NCBI GenBank assembly: GCA_030549895.1
Contig: JAUQQM010000001.1
Span: 1-44,090 of the forward strand
Source of the DNA: Patescibacteria group bacterium
GTDB lineage: Bacteria; Patescibacteriota; Minisyncoccia; UBA6257; HR35
Length of the DNA stretch: 44,090 nt
Reading direction: 5' to 3'
In this document: positions 4,944 through 37,226 of the stretch, piece after piece
How the letters are laid out: every line of letters begins with the position of its first letter
Position numbering within the stretch: the first letter of the stretch is position 1
Made by a program: the position numbers and the translations under genes
Notes under the pieces: generated by a model
The model's database searches: none
What the model saw: only the letters and a program-made list of their open reading frames with translations
Told to the model about the DNA's origin: nothing

Positions 4944-5017
4944 GGGCCCGTAGCTCAACTGGCTAGAGCGCCTGTTTTGCGAACAGGAGGTTACCGGTTC
5001 AAGTCCGGTCGGGTCCA
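4944..5017 (+). tRNA. tRNA-Ala (UGC)
   Basis: Full cloverleaf; acceptor GGGCCCG/CGGGTCC with G3:U70, anticodon loop TTTGCGA (TGC), A73. Confidence 0.95.
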
Positions 5018-5021
5018 CCTT

Positions 5022-5094
5022 GGGCGCGTAGCTCAGTTGGTAGAGCGTCTCGTTGACGTCGAGAAGGTCCTAGGTTCGAGTCCTAGCGCGCCCA
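5022..5094 (+). tRNA. tRNA-Val (GAC)
   Basis: Full cloverleaf; acceptor GGGCGCG/CGCGCCC, anticodon loop TTGACGT (GAC), A73. Confidence 0.95.
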
Positions 5095-5102
5095 CAAATT
5101 TA

Positions 5103-6332
5103 ATGCAGCTTTTTTCAGATTTACATATTCATTCAAAATATTCTCGGGCTTGTTCTAAAGAAATTAGCATTAGAACACTTGCCCAAGGAGCAAAGTGGAA
5201 AGGTATTAATCTTCTTGGTACTGGTGATTTTACCCATCCTTTCTGGCTAAAAGAAATAGAAGAAAATTTAATTGAATTTAAACAAGGAAGTGGTCTTTAT
5301 ATTTTTTCAGAAATACCTGAAGTCTTTTTTGTTCTTTCTTCAGAAATAAATTTCATTTTTCAAAGAGAACAAAAAACAAAAAGAATTCATTTTGTAGTTC
5401 TTACAGAAAATATTGAAAAAGCAAAAGAAATTAACAAATTTTTATCTTTTTATGGAAATTTAGAAGCTGATGGAAGGCCTACTATAACCTTAGATCCGAA
5501 AAATTTTCTCAAAAACGCTTTAGAAATTGATCCTGAAATTATTCTCATACCTGCTCATATTTGGACGCCATGGTTTGGTATTTTAGGCTCTTTTTCTGGT
5601 TTTGATAGTATTGATGAGTGTTTTGAAGAATTAACTAATGAAATTTTAGCAGTAGAAACAGGTCTTTCTTCTGATCCTTTAATGAATTGGCAAGTTGAAT
5701 CTTTAGATAAATTCGCCATTGTTTCATTTTCAGATTCTCATAGCAGTTTACCTCATAGACTTGGAAGAGAAGCTACAGTTCTTAATCTTCAAGAACTTTC
5801 TTTTAAAGGAATTAGAGATGCTTTAAAAAATAAAAAAATAGATTTTACTATTGAATTCTTTCCTGAGGAAGGAAAGTATCACTATGATGGCCATAGAAAT
5901 TGCGGAGTAAGTTTTAGTCCTGAAGAAAGTGAAAAAATAAATAACATATGTCCTGTTTGTCAAAAACCTCTTACAATTGGTGTTTTACATCGAGTTAAAA
6001 AATTAGGAAACAGAGATCCTAATAAAGCACCTAAAAAAATTCCCTTCTTTCGCCTCGTACCTCTTTCAGAAATAATTGCAAAAACTTTTGGTACGTCTGA
6101 GTGGTCAAATAAAGTTAAGGATATTTACTTTTCACTGGTAGAGTCTTTTGGAACAGAATACTCTATCCTTTTAGATGTACCCCTAAAGGAGCTTCAAAAA
6201 GTAGCCCCACAAAAATTAGTTCTTGCTATTGAAAAAGTAAGAAAAAACGATTTAAAAATTATTCCTGGTTATGATGGAGAATATGGTAAAATTGAATTTA
6301 GATTTGATGATGGTCAAAAAAGTCTTTTTTAG
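5103..6332 (+). CDS. PHP-domain protein, endonuclease Q (EndoQ)-like
   Basis: MQLFSDLHIHSKYSRACSKEIS, GTGDFTHP, SFSDSHSSLPHRLGREAT, and a zinc-ribbon-like CGVSFSPEE...CPVCQKPLTIGVLHRVKKLGNR as in EndoQ family. The ORF-track start (4977) lies in the tRNAs; ATG at 5103 is preferred. Confidence 0.8.
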   Translation: MQLFSDLHIHSKYSRACSKEISIRTLAQGAKWKGINLLGTGDFTHPFWLKEIEENLIEFKQGSGLYIFSEIPEVFFVLSSEINFIFQREQKTKRIHFVVLTENIEKAKEINKFLSFYGNLEADGRPTITLDPKNFLKNALEIDPEIILIPAHIWTPWFGILGSFSGFDSIDECFEELTNEILAVETGLSSDPLMNWQVESLDKFAIVSFSDSHSSLPHRLGREATVLNLQELSFKGIRDALKNKKIDFTIEFFPEEGKYHYDGHRNCGVSFSPEESEKINNICPVCQKPLTIGVLHRVKKLGNRDPNKAPKKIPFFRLVPLSEIIAKTFGTSEWSNKVKDIYFSLVESFGTEYSILLDVPLKELQKVAPQKLVLAIEKVRKNDLKIIPGYDGEYGKIEFRFDDGQKSLF

Positions 6333-6339
6333 TTAGTCT

Positions 6340-6672
6340 ATGATTTTAGTAGTTTTAATAAATGAAATTTTAAAGCTTATAGAGACATTTATAAGTTTTT
6401 GGTATAAAGATATACCTAAACATTTTTGGCAAAACTTCCTTGAGCTATTTGATGGTCTTGAACGAAAATTTGCTGTAAGAATAACTTTAGAAAATATATT
6501 TGTCCCACTCTGGCAGGACTACAGTCTTCTAGGTAGAATAATTTCTTTTCCTATAAGAATTTCTAAAATTTTAATTGGAATTTTAATTTATATAGCATTT
6601 TTTTCTGTTAGTTTTGCTATTTTTATTTCAATAGAAGTTTTACCAATTATTTTAATATACCTTTCACTTTAA
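6340..6672 (+). CDS. Small membrane protein upstream of the Clp-like ATPase
   Basis: 110-aa ORF with two hydrophobic segments, 1 nt before the next CDS. Confidence 0.7.
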   Translation: MILVVLINEILKLIETFISFWYKDIPKHFWQNFLELFDGLERKFAVRITLENIFVPLWQDYSLLGRIISFPIRISKILIGILIYIAFFSVSFAIFISIEVLPIILIYLSL

Positions 6673-6673
6673 A

Positions 6674-9073
6674 ATGTGGTATGAACTTCATCCTTTAGAA
6701 AGAATACTTATCTGGAATTTTAATATAGCCGTAAGAATTTTTCTTCTTGTTGCTTCCTTATTTTTTATTTTAAAAGTTAATATTTATTTTGGAATTTTTC
6801 TTTTAATATTTACGATTGTCAATTTTAAAAAATACTTTAAAGCTCAAAAGGAAATTTTACATGAAAAAGGAACACCAGAAGAATTTTTAGATTTTAAATC
6901 AAGAAAAATTTTACTGAAAACATTAAATGAGGCAGAAATTTTAAAAACATTAGATATAGATAAGATCTTTTTAAATTTAGCTTTAAAAGAAAAATATATA
7001 AAAAACATCCTTGCAAGAGCTGGAATGGAAAGTAAGGAATTTTCAAAACTCATAAATGGCTATGAAAAAGAAATTGAAGGAGAAATCAAAAATTCATTTA
7101 AAAAAATTTTAGTCCAAAATATAAACTCTATCCTTAATAAAAGCTATCTTGAGGCCTTGAACTTAGAAATAAATTATATTCCTTTTGGAATCTTATTTAT
7201 AAAATTTTTAGAGTATGATCCTGAACTTGTAAAAAAAATTAAAATAAATCTCCAAGTAGATGAGGAAATTTTATTTAGTGCATTTTTAATTGAAGAATTT
7301 GGAAAAAAAATTAGAGTGAAAGAAAAATATCAAATTACCAAAAATATTTTTGTAAAACCAAAAAAAACGAGTTTTGTAAATAGAGCTTGGACATCAAGAC
7401 CAACACCATTATTGGATTCAATGAGCGAGGATTTAACTTTTCTTGCCTCTTTAGGTAAGATAGGTTATATCGTTGGCCATAAAAATGAAATAGAATTAAC
7501 CTTAGCAGTCCTTGAAAAACCACAAAATAATAATGTAATTTTATTAGGTGAAGTAGGAAGTGGAAAAACAACAATTCTTTATCATTTAGCCTGGTTAATA
7601 AAATCTGATAAAGTACCCAAAAATTTATTTGACAAAAGACTAGTTCTTTTAAATTTAAATCTCCTATTAGAAAAAGAAGAAGAGGTTATTGCAAGAATTA
7701 ACAAGATAATTTATGAAATAAATAGAGCTAAAAATATAATTTTGGCAATGCCTGATGATCCAAGAACAGAAAAAATAATAGAGCATTTCAAAGACTTAGT
7801 TATCTCTCAAACACCATTAATTGTTTTAGCTTCACCTGAAAATTATAAAAATCTTTCAAAACATCCTTATGTAGTTGATACCTTTACTGTAGTTAGAGTA
7901 GGATCGCTTTCTGAAAAAGAAACTCTAACACTTCTTACTTTCGAACTTATAGGCTGGGAAATAAAGTTTAAAATTAAAGTAACAATAAAAGCATTAAAAA
8001 CTGCCATAAAACTTGCAAATAGATTCCTAAAACCAAAACTTTTGCCTGGATCAGCAAGAGAATTGATGTTAGAAACTATAAATATAGCAAAGATAAAAAA
8101 TTTAAAAATAGTAGATGAAAATTTAGTGGCTGAAACGCTTTCTCAACTTATAAATATTCCTGTCAAACCACCAGAGCTTGAAGAAACTCAACTTCTTTTG
8201 AATTTAGAGGAAATAATTCACCAATCATTAATAGATCAGCAAGAGGCAGTAAAAGAAGTCTCCGAAGCCTTAAGAACTTATAGAGCTGGTCTTGGAAAAA
8301 CAAAAGGTCCTATAGGAGTTTTTCTATTTTTAGGACCTACGGGGGTTGGAAAGACAGAACTTGCAAAAACAATAGCAAAAATCTACTTTAACGGTGTTAT
8401 GATAAGACTTGATATGGGTCAATTTCAAGAAGTAAATACAATAGATAATTTAATAGGTTCTGAGTCAACTTCAGGTATCCTTACTGAAAGTGTAAAAAGA
8501 AAACCTTATAGTGTCTTGCTTTTAGATGAATTTGAAAAATGTCATCCAAAAATTTGGGATATATTTTTAGCAATCTTTGATGAGGGTAAAATTCAAGACT
8601 TTACTGGTAGAGAAATAGATTTTTCTAATACAATAATTATTGCGACCTCAAATGCTTTTTCAGAAATAATCTATCAAAAAATAAGAGAAAATAAAACTTA
8701 TGAGGAAATCAAATCTCAAATAAAAGAAAAACTTTACACTATATTTCCCCCAGAGCTTTTAAATAGGTTTGATGGAATTATAATTTTCAAGCCATTAAGT
8801 AAAGGGGATATTAAAAGCATCACCAATTTAAAATTGAAAGACTTAAAGGAAAAAATAAATAAAATTGGATATGAAATTGAAATAAAAGAAGCGGCTATTG
8901 AAAAAATTATTGAAGAAGGATATAGTGAAGTTTTTGGAGCTAGAGCTTTAGAGAGGACAATCCAGGAAAGAATTTATGATGTCCTTTCTAAAAAAATTCT
9001 TGCCAACGAATTTACTAAAGGAAAGAAAATAATTGTTGATTTTCAAAATGAATGGAAATTTTATCAAATATGA
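6674..9073 (+). CDS. Membrane-anchored divergent Clp-type double AAA+ ATPase
   Basis: N-terminal hydrophobic segments; NBD1 Walker A GEVGSGKTT; NBD2 GPTGVGKTELAKTIAK, SVLLLDEFEKCHPKIWDIFLAIFDEGKIQDFTGREIDFSNTIIIATSNA; Clp C-terminal subdomain GYSEVFGARALERTIQERI. Confidence 0.87.
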   Translation: MWYELHPLERILIWNFNIAVRIFLLVASLFFILKVNIYFGIFLLIFTIVNFKKYFKAQKEILHEKGTPEEFLDFKSRKILLKTLNEAEILKTLDIDKIFLNLALKEKYIKNILARAGMESKEFSKLINGYEKEIEGEIKNSFKKILVQNINSILNKSYLEALNLEINYIPFGILFIKFLEYDPELVKKIKINLQVDEEILFSAFLIEEFGKKIRVKEKYQITKNIFVKPKKTSFVNRAWTSRPTPLLDSMSEDLTFLASLGKIGYIVGHKNEIELTLAVLEKPQNNNVILLGEVGSGKTTILYHLAWLIKSDKVPKNLFDKRLVLLNLNLLLEKEEEVIARINKIIYEINRAKNIILAMPDDPRTEKIIEHFKDLVISQTPLIVLASPENYKNLSKHPYVVDTFTVVRVGSLSEKETLTLLTFELIGWEIKFKIKVTIKALKTAIKLANRFLKPKLLPGSARELMLETINIAKIKNLKIVDENLVAETLSQLINIPVKPPELEETQLLLNLEEIIHQSLIDQQEAVKEVSEALRTYRAGLGKTKGPIGVFLFLGPTGVGKTELAKTIAKIYFNGVMIRLDMGQFQEVNTIDNLIGSESTSGILTESVKRKPYSVLLLDEFEKCHPKIWDIFLAIFDEGKIQDFTGREIDFSNTIIIATSNAFSEIIYQKIRENKTYEEIKSQIKEKLYTIFPPELLNRFDGIIIFKPLSKGDIKSITNLKLKDLKEKINKIGYEIEIKEAAIEKIIEEGYSEVFGARALERTIQERIYDVLSKKILANEFTKGKKIIVDFQNEWKFYQI

Positions 9074-9955: not shown

Positions 9956-11443
9956 TTAAAGATCTTTAGATTTAGATTCTCTAAAAGCATTTTCTTTATT
10001 AGATTTGAGAGTATCTATATCTTTTTGATAACTCTCGGCTATACGCATTACATCATCTCCATAAAATCTATAAGCAGGTCTGTTCCAGTTTGAGCCAGCA
10101 AAATAAATCATAGCAGCTTTCCATTCAGCATACTTTGTTCCTGCTGTAGCTCCAGCATCAGCTAAATAAAGAGCAGCAGCAACAAAAGAGTCAATTATAT
10201 TCCAAGGAGAAGGTGGATTATGACCAGTAATATCACTTATTCTCTTTTTATATTTTACCCAAGTACTAGGTAAAAATTGAGCAGGGCCCATAGCTCCTCC
10301 CCATCCATACCATTGTTTGCAAGATACTGGCATTTGATCTGGATCAAGACCAAGTTCAGAAACAAGAGATTCAAAAATTGGCCATTCTTTCGGATTCATA
10401 GCTTTTTTATAGTTACAAGTTCCAACATTTTTTCCTATTTTAGATTCATAATCAAGAACTGCTAAAATCAAAGCTGCTCTTACACCAGTTACTTGAGAAG
10501 CGAGTTCTGCATATTTTAAAGCTGTCTCAAAAGTAATATCTCCTACACCACCAGCAAGCTGATAAATTTTTGTCCTTATTTGAGCTGCTGTTTTTTCAGA
10601 CTCTTTTAAAAGTTTTTGATAATTAGCTTCAATACCCTTTGTTTTTGCTAAGAGATTTTTCTTTTCTTTTAAAATTTCATTTAATTCTTGTCTTCTAATC
10701 TCTTGACTATTTAAAAGAGCTATTTTTTGAGCTTGTTCGTCTTCAAGTTGAGCTTCTTTTTCCATCAGATCTTTTTGAATGACTTTTAGAGCATCTATAC
10801 TTTCTTGAATTGAAATTTGAATTTTATCTAAAGTAACTATTTTATTGAAAAAATCAGAAAGTTGTTTACTTTCTACTAAAATATCAATAAGACTTTTTTT
10901 CTGATTTTTATAAATTTCTCTCAAAGCCTCTTTTAATTTTTCCTTATTTCTATTTATTCTTTCTTTGGTTTCCTTTATACCTTTTTGAGTTTCGTCTATT
11001 TTCTTATCTAACTCCTTTATCTCTAATTCTATGGCCTTAATTTCAAGGTTAATTTTTTTAACTAAAGTATCATAGTACTGAATCTGTTTTTGAAGAGTAT
11101 TTTTTTCTTTTGATATTTTATCAAGTTGATTCTTATATTCATCTATTTGTTTAAGAACTTCTTGAAGTTGAGTTTCTAAACTCTGACGATATTCTTCAAA
11201 AGGATTAAGAGGTACTTGTTTTTCTTCAGAAGAGTTTTCAGTCGAAGTCGTTTTATTATTGGATTTTTCTTCTGTTTGAGCTGGTGCTAAAGAAATTGAC
11301 CAGAAAAATAGCGAAATTATTATTGAAAAGACTAAAAATAAATTATAAAATTTAAAGTTAGGCTTAATTTTTAGGTCTTCTTTTTTTTCTTTAATTTGAT
11401 GTCTTTTTTTAAAGGGTTTTATTTCTAAAATTAAATTACTCAC
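9956..11443 (-). CDS. Coiled-coil protein with C-terminal lytic transglycosylase (MltB-like/SLT-type) domain
   Basis: Long Lys/Glu coiled coil, then AALILAVLDYESKIGKNVG...WYGWGGAMGPAQFLPSTWVKYKKRISD...AALYLADAGA. Confidence 0.85.
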   Translation of the reverse strand: MSNLILEIKPFKKRHQIKEKKEDLKIKPNFKFYNLFLVFSIIISLFFWSISLAPAQTEEKSNNKTTSTENSSEEKQVPLNPFEEYRQSLETQLQEVLKQIDEYKNQLDKISKEKNTLQKQIQYYDTLVKKINLEIKAIELEIKELDKKIDETQKGIKETKERINRNKEKLKEALREIYKNQKKSLIDILVESKQLSDFFNKIVTLDKIQISIQESIDALKVIQKDLMEKEAQLEDEQAQKIALLNSQEIRRQELNEILKEKKNLLAKTKGIEANYQKLLKESEKTAAQIRTKIYQLAGGVGDITFETALKYAELASQVTGVRAALILAVLDYESKIGKNVGTCNYKKAMNPKEWPIFESLVSELGLDPDQMPVSCKQWYGWGGAMGPAQFLPSTWVKYKKRISDITGHNPPSPWNIIDSFVAAALYLADAGATAGTKYAEWKAAMIYFAGSNWNRPAYRFYGDDVMRIAESYQKDIDTLKSNKENAFRESKSKDL

Positions 11444-34882: not shown

Positions 34883-35401
34883 TTATTTCTTGTTTATTAA
34901 ACTCAAAACTTTAGAAGCTGCTTGCGCTCCTTTTGTCTGAGGTAGAATCATAGAAATTCTCCCAAGAAGACTCATTAATTTTTCTATTACACCAAACTCA
35001 AATAACATAACAACTATTAAAGATAAAGTTCTAAATGGTAGAAAGTCACCAAAAAATGAAAAAATAAAGCCTAGGTTTTCTGGTACAACTCCACCAAAAA
35101 AGTGAATAAAAACGCTCCTATATTTTTTAAGACCCTTAAATGCTCTTTTTATCATTGAATATTCTTGAAAAGATTCGTTTTTTTCTTCATCAAAAAAGGT
35201 ACTTAAAAGAAGAAAAAAAGAAATAGTAATGTCGCAAAGTTTAGTAATGATTCCACCTACAAAACCGACAATAAAACCAATAAATACTATAGAAAGTCCA
35301 GACTTTATAATGAGAAGAACTAGATCTAATAAATCAACGAATACAGCAATAATAAAAGCAAGGAAAATTAAAATATATTTAATCAATTTTATTGTGTTCA
35401 T
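34883..35401 (-). CDS. Polytopic membrane protein (172 aa) of the T4SS-like operon
   Basis: Several hydrophobic segments; overlaps VirB4-like gene. Confidence 0.65.
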   Translation of the reverse strand: MNTIKLIKYILIFLAFIIAVFVDLLDLVLLIIKSGLSIVFIGFIVGFVGGIITKLCDITISFFLLLSTFFDEEKNESFQEYSMIKRAFKGLKKYRSVFIHFFGGVVPENLGFIFSFFGDFLPFRTLSLIVVMLFEFGVIEKLMSLLGRISMILPQTKGAQAASKVLSLINKK

Positions 35402-37226
35402 CTTCTTTTTGAAGTTTTTTTCTTATTTCCTCTTCTCTTTTAAGAGCAAAAAGTTGTTCAGGAGAAGTTGTAATAATTTTGTCCTCAGTAAATGAAGCAA
35501 CTATTTTTATTGGAACATGCTTTAAGCCAGCAAAAAATATTCCTTCACCTATTCGAGCATTAACAAGAATATCTTTTTCAGCATCAGTTAATTTGAAAAC
35601 TTCTTGAAGAAGAGGGGCGGCTACAGGAGATTGTTTTAAAAGAAGGGCTAAAGCTGAATTTGTGATAATCGGTCTTCCGAAAGGAGAATTTAAAAAATCT
35701 TCAACATCTTGAGTAATAGTTGTAACTCCTAAATACCATTTTCTTCCTCTTTTTACAACATCTAAAAGAAAACTACCTCCTTGTTCATTTTTAATAAGCC
35801 ACCATGCCTCATCTATCACCAGAATTCTTTTCCTCAACTCTTTTCTTATGCTATTTACCACATAATTAATTATTATGTACATCGCAATAGGTCTTAAATT
35901 TTCTTGAAGATCTCTTATGCCAAAAACTATAAAGTTAGAATCAAGTTTTATATTTGTTGGTTGGTTAATAAATCCTGAAAAATTACCTCGAGTATAAGGA
36001 TAAAGTTTGTCAGCAATTTTCTCACCGCCTTCTATTGATCTTAAAACAATTTCAAAATCATTAAGAGTTGGATAAACTCTTATATCCTCGTATTTTGTTT
36101 GGGGAGTAATATTAAATGAAGCATAAGTTGCTGTTATTGCTTGATCTAAAATCGTAAGTTCTTCTGGGCTAATTTCTTCTAAGATTAATTTAAAAAGACC
36201 TAAAAGATAAGCTGCTTTTTCTTTTAAAACATCTAAGAATGTTTCATCCTCTCTTGGTGGTGGTAAATCAAAGGGGTTAATATGATATTGAGATCCTAAA
36301 GAAATTGGAATAAATGTTCCACCAAGATGATCGCAAAGTCTTTTATATTCATTTTCAGGATCAACAACAATAACATCAGTCCCTATCATTAAAGATCTTA
36401 TTATTTCTAATTTAACAGCATAAGATTTACCCGAACCAGATCTAGCAAAAATTGTCATATGAGCATTCTCCAAAGAGAATCTATCAAAAATTACAAATCC
36501 ATTTGTAAATTGATTTATCCCATAAAAAATTCCTTTGTCACTCGTAAGATCTGAAGTAATAAAAGGAATGAAAGTAGAAAGAGGTGAAGTATTTAACTGA
36601 ACAGTGAAATTAATTTTGTCTTTATTAAGAGGAAGATTTGTCTCAAATCCTTGGAGATGTTGAAAAATTATTTTCTTTGGTAAAATTAAACTTCCTTCCA
36701 AGATTTTAAGAAGTTCATTTTCTACTTGAATTAAGCTATCAAGGTTTTTATTTAAAATTGTTATATAAACTCCAACTTCAAACATTTTTTCTTGGCCCTG
36801 AGTAAGAAGATCTCTCAATTCTTCAATATCTTGATGAGCTGTCTCTAGTTCTGGAGATCTTACCATGCCTTTTTCTTCTCTTTCAATAATCTCTGCCTCT
36901 ATTCTTGCAATCTTTTTCTGAAGAACTTTCAAAAATTCGCTAGTTTCAATAGGTTTTACATAAATAGAAAGATTAAGAGGAGAATGAATATTTATAATTC
37001 GAGCTAGCCAACCAGCAAAAAGATATCTTGAATAAGAAGAAATAATTATTGTCTTTAAATAAAAATCGCCTATCTGAATATATGTTGGTTCTTGCCTAAA
37101 ATATTGAGGAGCTAAAATATCTTTAATATCAGAAAGACTAATCACTTGGCCAGTTTCGAGTTCAATTTTTTTTGGCTCTTTTTTCTTTAAAAATGGTAAA
37201 TTAAAATCAAATGGTAAGTTAATCAT
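35379..37226 (-). CDS. VirB4/TraC-like type IV secretion ATPase
   Basis: MTIFARSGSGKSYAVKLEIIRSLMIGTDVIVVDPENEYKRLCDHLGG, ILVIDEAWWLIKN, VTTITQDVEDFLNSPFGRPIITNSALALLLKQ. Confidence 0.92.
   Translation of the reverse strand: MINLPFDFNLPFLKKKEPKKIELETGQVISLSDIKDILAPQYFRQEPTYIQIGDFYLKTIIISSYSRYLFAGWLARIINIHSPLNLSIYVKPIETSEFLKVLQKKIARIEAEIIEREEKGMVRSPELETAHQDIEELRDLLTQGQEKMFEVGVYITILNKNLDSLIQVENELLKILEGSLILPKKIIFQHLQGFETNLPLNKDKINFTVQLNTSPLSTFIPFITSDLTSDKGIFYGINQFTNGFVIFDRFSLENAHMTIFARSGSGKSYAVKLEIIRSLMIGTDVIVVDPENEYKRLCDHLGGTFIPISLGSQYHINPFDLPPPREDETFLDVLKEKAAYLLGLFKLILEEISPEELTILDQAITATYASFNITPQTKYEDIRVYPTLNDFEIVLRSIEGGEKIADKLYPYTRGNFSGFINQPTNIKLDSNFIVFGIRDLQENLRPIAMYIIINYVVNSIRKELRKRILVIDEAWWLIKNEQGGSFLLDVVKRGRKWYLGVTTITQDVEDFLNSPFGRPIITNSALALLLKQSPVAAPLLQEVFKLTDAEKDILVNARIGEGIFFAGLKHVPIKIVASFTEDKIITTSPEQLFALKREEEIRKKLQKEDEHNKID

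Follow-up and report, generated by a model that had tools for sequence, protein, structure and literature searches.

A membrane-anchored, Clp-like double AAA+ ATPase of Patescibacteria with a conserved second ATPase site, eroded pore loops and a small membrane-protein partner

Hsp100 proteins are the textbook threading motors. In ClpC and ClpA, an N-domain is followed by two AAA+ domains (D1 and D2), each with an active site, and a small C-terminal domain (D2-small). Other AAA motors, including FtsH, Msp1 and Bcs1, are held at the membrane by N-terminal helices; these have a single AAA ring and belong to the classic AAA clade, with FtsH also carrying a protease domain. ClpB is driven mainly by its second ring (AAA2) and cannot disaggregate without the pore tyrosine of that ring, Y653 (PMC6593972). 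The arginine pair of D1 couples nucleotide to oligomerisation (PMC4239642). Torsins are Clp/Hsp100-related AAA+ proteins that lack aromatic pore loops, associate with the membrane by an N-terminal hydrophobic region and depend on a membrane-protein cofactor (PMC5425593). They contain one AAA domain and are located in the ER lumen; their arginine finger is supplied by the cofactor (LAP1 or LULL1), which has a degenerate AAA fold. The question of what an Hsp100 does without threading has so far been raised mainly by these eukaryotic proteins; a bacterial phylum that keeps the D2 motor without its grip asks it again.

The window that we analyzed is a 44,090-nucleotide stretch from a Patescibacteria genome (470,788 bases in eight contigs). 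As the first-pass annotation had noted, two open reading frames, the first for a small transmembrane protein, lie 1 nucleotide apart (Table 1); they are found in the order tRNAs, TIGR00375-like gene, small protein, ATPase and miaA, all on the + strand. A sequencing artefact or pseudogene is ruled out by the intact frames and by motifs conserved across 91 relatives; because the same features recur in these aligned relatives, which come from dozens of families, they are not due to chance. A scan for promoters and terminators gave matches no more frequent than in shuffled sequences. The mechanically called frame for the TIGR00375-like protein (4977-6332) begins inside the tRNA genes for Ala (4944-5019) and Val (5022-5095); its true start is probably the ATG at 5103, which would exclude 4977-5102. 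On the other side, convergent with miaA, 9956-11443 (-) encodes a PcsB-type coiled coil with an SLT transglycosylase domain, a likely peptidoglycan hydrolase.

Table 1. Features of the two-gene locus, in window positions.
Feature	Positions	Strand	Basis
Small membrane partner, 110 aa	6340..6672	+	ORF list; conserved upstream relatives
Clp/Hsp100-like double AAA+ ATPase, membrane-anchored, 799 aa	6674..9073	+	ORF, domains, alignment, model, tree
N-terminal transmembrane helical hairpin, residues 7-54	6692..6835	+	Hydropathy; AlphaFold helices 7-34 and 37-54
Divergent double-repeat Clp N-domain, residues 68-215	6875..7318	+	hhalign; eight helices in model
D1 (NBD1), degenerate AAA+ domain	7379..8098	+	AAA fold in model; motif table
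D1 Walker A GEVGSGKT, intact in window	7547..7570	+	Lys retained in 74/91 of family
D1 IILAMPDDPRT at the Walker B position, without DE	7736..7768	+	DE retained in 14/91
D2 (NBD2) with ClpB_D2-small C-terminal domain, intact ATPase module	8177..9058	+	PF07724, PF10431, conserved motifs
D2 Walker A GPTGVGKT	8333..8356	+	GxTGVGKT pattern in 91/91
D2 pore-loop position LIGSESTSGILTE, shortened, aromatic GYVGY missing	8450..8488	+	Alignment; motif table
D2 Walker B region LLLDEFEK	8513..8539	+	DE in 91/91

The first-pass annotation had described a Clp-like second AAA+ domain without the GYVGYEEGG pore loop and a degenerate first domain that keeps its Walker A, and both descriptions hold. D2 matches PF07724 (E 2.7e-43) and ClpB_D2-small (E 2.7e-20). 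We compared its motifs and those of D1 in 91 aligned relatives (three doubly degenerate ones, L140-L142, were set aside) with those in seven canonical paralogues. The D2 Walker A, Walker B, arginine finger (Asn-Arg) and sensor 2 (Arg) are found in all 91 relatives and sensor 1 in 90, implying selection for hydrolysis in most lineages. When the window sequence is aligned with Thermus ClpB and S. aureus ClpC (GYVGYEEGG and GYVGHDDGG), LIGSESTSGILTE shows a gap, with the loop missing exactly at the GYVG position. The GY[VP]GY loop occurs in only one of the 91 relatives compared with all seven canonical paralogues; in most relatives the loop is shortened and no conserved new aromatic takes its place. 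Full-length loops are present in 17 relatives and some aromatic residue in the loop in 18, so, judged from these residues, some members may have a weaker D2 grip. The residual loops include GYPGYEEGG (L082), GMPGYEAGG (L103) and GFAGAERGG (L077).

In D1, the ClpC paralogue encoded by the same genome has YIVFIDEIHTL at the Walker B position and the window ATPase has IILAMPDD. The D1 pore aromatic (K[YF]RG) is found in none of the 91 relatives and the D1 arginine pair in two. The two active sites that characterize ClpC and ClpA are not both present: the window D1 has MPDD for its Walker B, and few members of the family retain the acidic pair (14/91) or the arginine pair. The most ancestral D1 domains are those of members in which the small partner is fused to the ATPase (vide infra), with the Walker B DE in 9 of 11. 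Residual D2 loops such as that of L082 suggest erosion of the grip from a normal ancestor.

The relatives set aside, L140 (6072-8477), L141 (1007-3418) and L142 (5976-8261), belong to genomes G002, G004 and G013 of the same taxonomic family as the window. Their D2 is also degenerate (loss of the arginine finger, Walker B or sensors), yet the small partner is still located upstream in L140 and L142. Judged from these motifs, their products are apparently pseudo-ATPases in both rings, so ATP hydrolysis may be dispensable in some lineages.

The features that connect Hsp100 proteins to a protease or to disaggregation are also absent. The ClpP-docking loop ([LIVM]GF-type), which the first-pass annotation had proposed looking for, is found in none of the 91 relatives, either by length or by motif; among the canonical paralogues, the D1 and D2 features are present in 7/7 and the sequence motif of the ClpP loop in 5/7. 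The coiled-coil M-domain that ClpB/Hsp104 disaggregases carry between D1 and D2 is likewise absent from all 91, with a spacer of 143-148 residues between the D1 arginine finger and the D2 Walker A compared with a canonical median of 267. The window ATPase scores 368.9 bits against the NCBIfam ClpB equivalog, below the cut-off of 1232.1. Threading, disaggregation and delivery to a protease are therefore most likely outside the repertoire of this machine, which has lost the aromatic grip of each ring together with the ClpP dock and the M-domain. The suggestion that it is not a normal unfoldase is well supported: across the family the aromatic pore loops have gone from D1 and D2 alike, as has the ClpP-docking loop, and the D2 ATPase site is strictly kept.

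The N-terminal region had been described as a replacement of the Clp N-domain by hydrophobic segments and a new helical region. The hydrophobic segments are confirmed as a helical hairpin, predicted to lie in the membrane; the replacement is not confirmed. A Pfam search of this region of the ATPase gave no Clp_N match, a result that would have favored replacement, but profile-profile comparison overturned that reading: the profile of the 91 family N-regions matches that of canonical ClpC N-domains from the same phylum with a probability of 99.2% (hhalign, P 2.4e-19), and with 98.8% after linker trimming; in the controls, reversed sequences and the small-protein profile each gave 0.2%. The Clp N-domain is retained in divergent form, now beside the membrane. 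An AlphaFold model of the 799-residue ATPase (68-row family alignment; mean pLDDT 90.8, pTM 0.84) places the hairpin before eight helices at residues 74-215 and then two AAA domains. Among solved structures, ClpC chains come closest, reaching a TM-score of 0.85 (by target length) over D1-D2. The window ATPase thus has the ClpC/ClpA architecture, sharing with ClpC, ClpA and ClpB the N-domain, D1, D2 and D2-small in the same order as well as the D2 catalytic motifs; it differs from them in the hairpin and small partner, the degenerate D1, the absence of aromatic pore loops, ClpP loop and M-domain, and its separate clade (vide infra).

The small partner has an N-terminal part of about 70 residues with conserved F..WY, PL[YW]..Y and R73, followed by a C-terminal hydrophobic segment (residues ~77-110); Pfam and NCBIfam searches of the 110-residue protein returned no family, and neither database has a family name for the pair. 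Its gene immediately precedes that of the ATPase in 30/30 loci from the same order. In 74 fully read loci, the partner is identified by similarity at position -1 in 52 and is fused to the ATPase in 11; most of the others have, at the corresponding position, a gene for a protein of 108-153 residues whose C-terminal segment is hydrophobic. A profile search detects the partner in 99 of 287 genomes sampled evenly across the phylum; in 89 of the 99 the listed ATPase match either follows it closely or includes it, and in 31 of them it forms part of a single open frame of more than 700 residues, that is, it is fused to the ATPase. When a natural fusion was modeled as one chain (pLDDT 86.1), helix 56-101, which starts in the partner part, and helix 103-126 formed one hairpin. 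Adjacency plus gene fusion is strong evidence that the two proteins function jointly, and they may bind one another directly. That the ATPase is tethered to the membrane and paired with a small membrane protein, as the first-pass annotation claimed, is strongly supported by the conserved adjacency and the natural fusions.

Most of the Patescibacteria phylum carries this membrane-anchored family. Among 61 genomes sampled from the same order, a family-level match at E < 1e-100 is found in 49 and the degenerate version in another three; in the phylum sample, about 177 of the 287 genomes (>150 families) have a family-level match. The cut-off for the phylum sample, about E < 1e-125, was chosen by eye to lie beyond the scores of canonical ClpC (about 1e-100 to 1e-118). 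These counts, with the partner adjoining or fused in 89 of 99 carriers, provide the co-occurrence survey proposed with the first-pass annotation, and the phylogeny proposed with it separates the family from canonical Clp proteins: in a D2 tree that includes E. coli ClpA and ClpB, the 91 family sequences form one clade (SH-aLRT 99 in a quick search without bootstrap). The family coexists with conventional machinery, since the genome of the window also encodes a canonical ClpC (GYVGYEEGG, LGF) and ClpP. In G206, G246, G067 and G089, nothing other than the membrane Clp matches the family profile, and it may be the sole Hsp100; G335 has two copies on one contig (C10: 18265-20070 and 25344-27005). 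At L107 (9811-12387), a Clp that retains GYVGYEEGG and the D1 motifs but lacks both the M-domain and the ClpP motif immediately precedes a membrane Clp pair on the same strand and is a possible intermediate form. In the open-access literature we found no paper on this gene pair, on a transmembrane ClpB-type AAA+ protein in Patescibacteria or on a bacterial torsin-like protein, and given that scope these absences are weak evidence; Clp and AAA go unmentioned in the main text of a Saccharibacteria Tn-seq paper.

The genome neighborhoods point to the envelope. Recurrent neighbors include MraZ (10 loci), RsmH (11), a SpoVD/FtsI-like PBP (8), MurE (9), LCP (5), FtsX (4), M23/EnvC-like (5) and GT4/MraY-like proteins (4), in counts that include related genomes; these cell-wall and division genes are nearly always on the same strand as the ATPase. 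The 10 loci with mraZ compare with about 1.3 expected by chance (Poisson 1e-6, relatedness ignored). In genome-wide coordinates, mraZ is located 0.5-8 kb from the pair on the same strand in 19 genomes from eight families, and its varying sides and distances argue against a single inherited arrangement; no canonical ClpC was found within 10 kb of a listed mraZ when the listed coordinates were compared by eye. The family is present in 159/240 genomes with MraZ compared with 18/47 without (Fisher 0.0005, relatedness uncorrected). The window ATPase itself is flanked by the TIGR00375-like gene and miaA, not by dcw genes, and its genome has mraZ on another contig; in close relatives of the window, LCP and MurE are directly downstream. 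From these neighborhoods, cell-wall and division complexes are the likely clients.

We infer a role in membrane remodeling or extraction and, with about even confidence, favor a membrane-tethered, D2-driven, probably non-threading Hsp100 that would act as a two-gene machine to remodel envelope or division complexes. In this mechanism, the small protein and the ATPase hairpin would jointly anchor the complex, presumably a hexamer, in the membrane; the divergent N-domain beside the membrane would be the likely contact for a client or adaptor; D1 would serve as a structural or regulatory pseudo-ring; and D2, as the sole ring with a fully conserved ATPase site, would drive the conformational change. 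Driven in this way, the ring would probably take apart or reorganize assemblies at the membrane, with those of cell-wall synthesis and division the likeliest; both this non-threading action and the identity of the clients are predictions. With FtsH, Msp1 and Bcs1, compared by domain content, the family shares membrane anchoring by N-terminal helices. Torsins with LAP1 or LULL1 are a separate family but, in mode of action, the nearest analogue known; the likeness extends to a Clp-like AAA+ protein without an aromatic loop, membrane association and a membrane-protein partner; the bacterial family differs in its two AAA domains, an inferred cytoplasmic placement, a small helical partner and an Asn-Arg finger supplied by its own D2 in 91/91. 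More tentatively, and with the balance tilted against it, the family could be an independent bacterial counterpart of the torsin mode, that is, a phylum-wide, two-component membrane Hsp100 in which one active ring remodels wall or division complexes without threading and which has decayed to a pseudo-ATPase in some lineages.

The leading alternative, which we regard as unlikely, is an extraction or translocation machine of Msp1-, FtsH- or PTEX/HSP101-like mode, one that still threads membrane or exported proteins and grips them by non-aromatic loop residues or pore loop 2. It is consistent with a ring motor having all of the D2 catalytic motifs, an N-domain and membrane anchor on one side, and the residual loops in L082, L103 and L077; however, the D1 aromatic is absent in 91/91, the D2 loop is mostly shortened without a new aromatic, the corresponding D2 tyrosine is essential in ClpB (PMC6593972), and the recurrent neighbors include no linked protease or export gene. 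An ATP-dependent scaffold or switch, in which the ring organizes envelope proteins through the N-domain and partner and ATP sets the state of assembly instead of powering mechanical work, ranks behind the extractor as a rather improbable general explanation: D1 is already a pseudo-ATPase in most members, and the doubly degenerate relatives, two of which keep the small partner, favor a scaffold in at least some lineages, but the strict retention of the D2 motifs indicates that hydrolysis is selected in most. An ordinary ClpC-type protease ATPase with an added membrane anchor, as the ClpC-like fold and Clp N-domain might suggest, was rejected as highly improbable on the basis of the lost aromatic loops, ClpP-docking loop and M-domain, the degenerate D1 and the separate canonical ClpC and ClpP in the genome.

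The preferred reading, a non-threading remodeling machine, would make this widespread gene pair a concrete handle on how very small bacteria build and remodel their envelopes, and the naturally fused bacterial form of the two-component system should be simpler to purify. Elsewhere in the window, 35379-37226 (-) encodes a TraG/VirB4-like ATPase with uncharacterized neighbors, which suggests that the region at 35-43 kb is a type IV secretion-like cluster.
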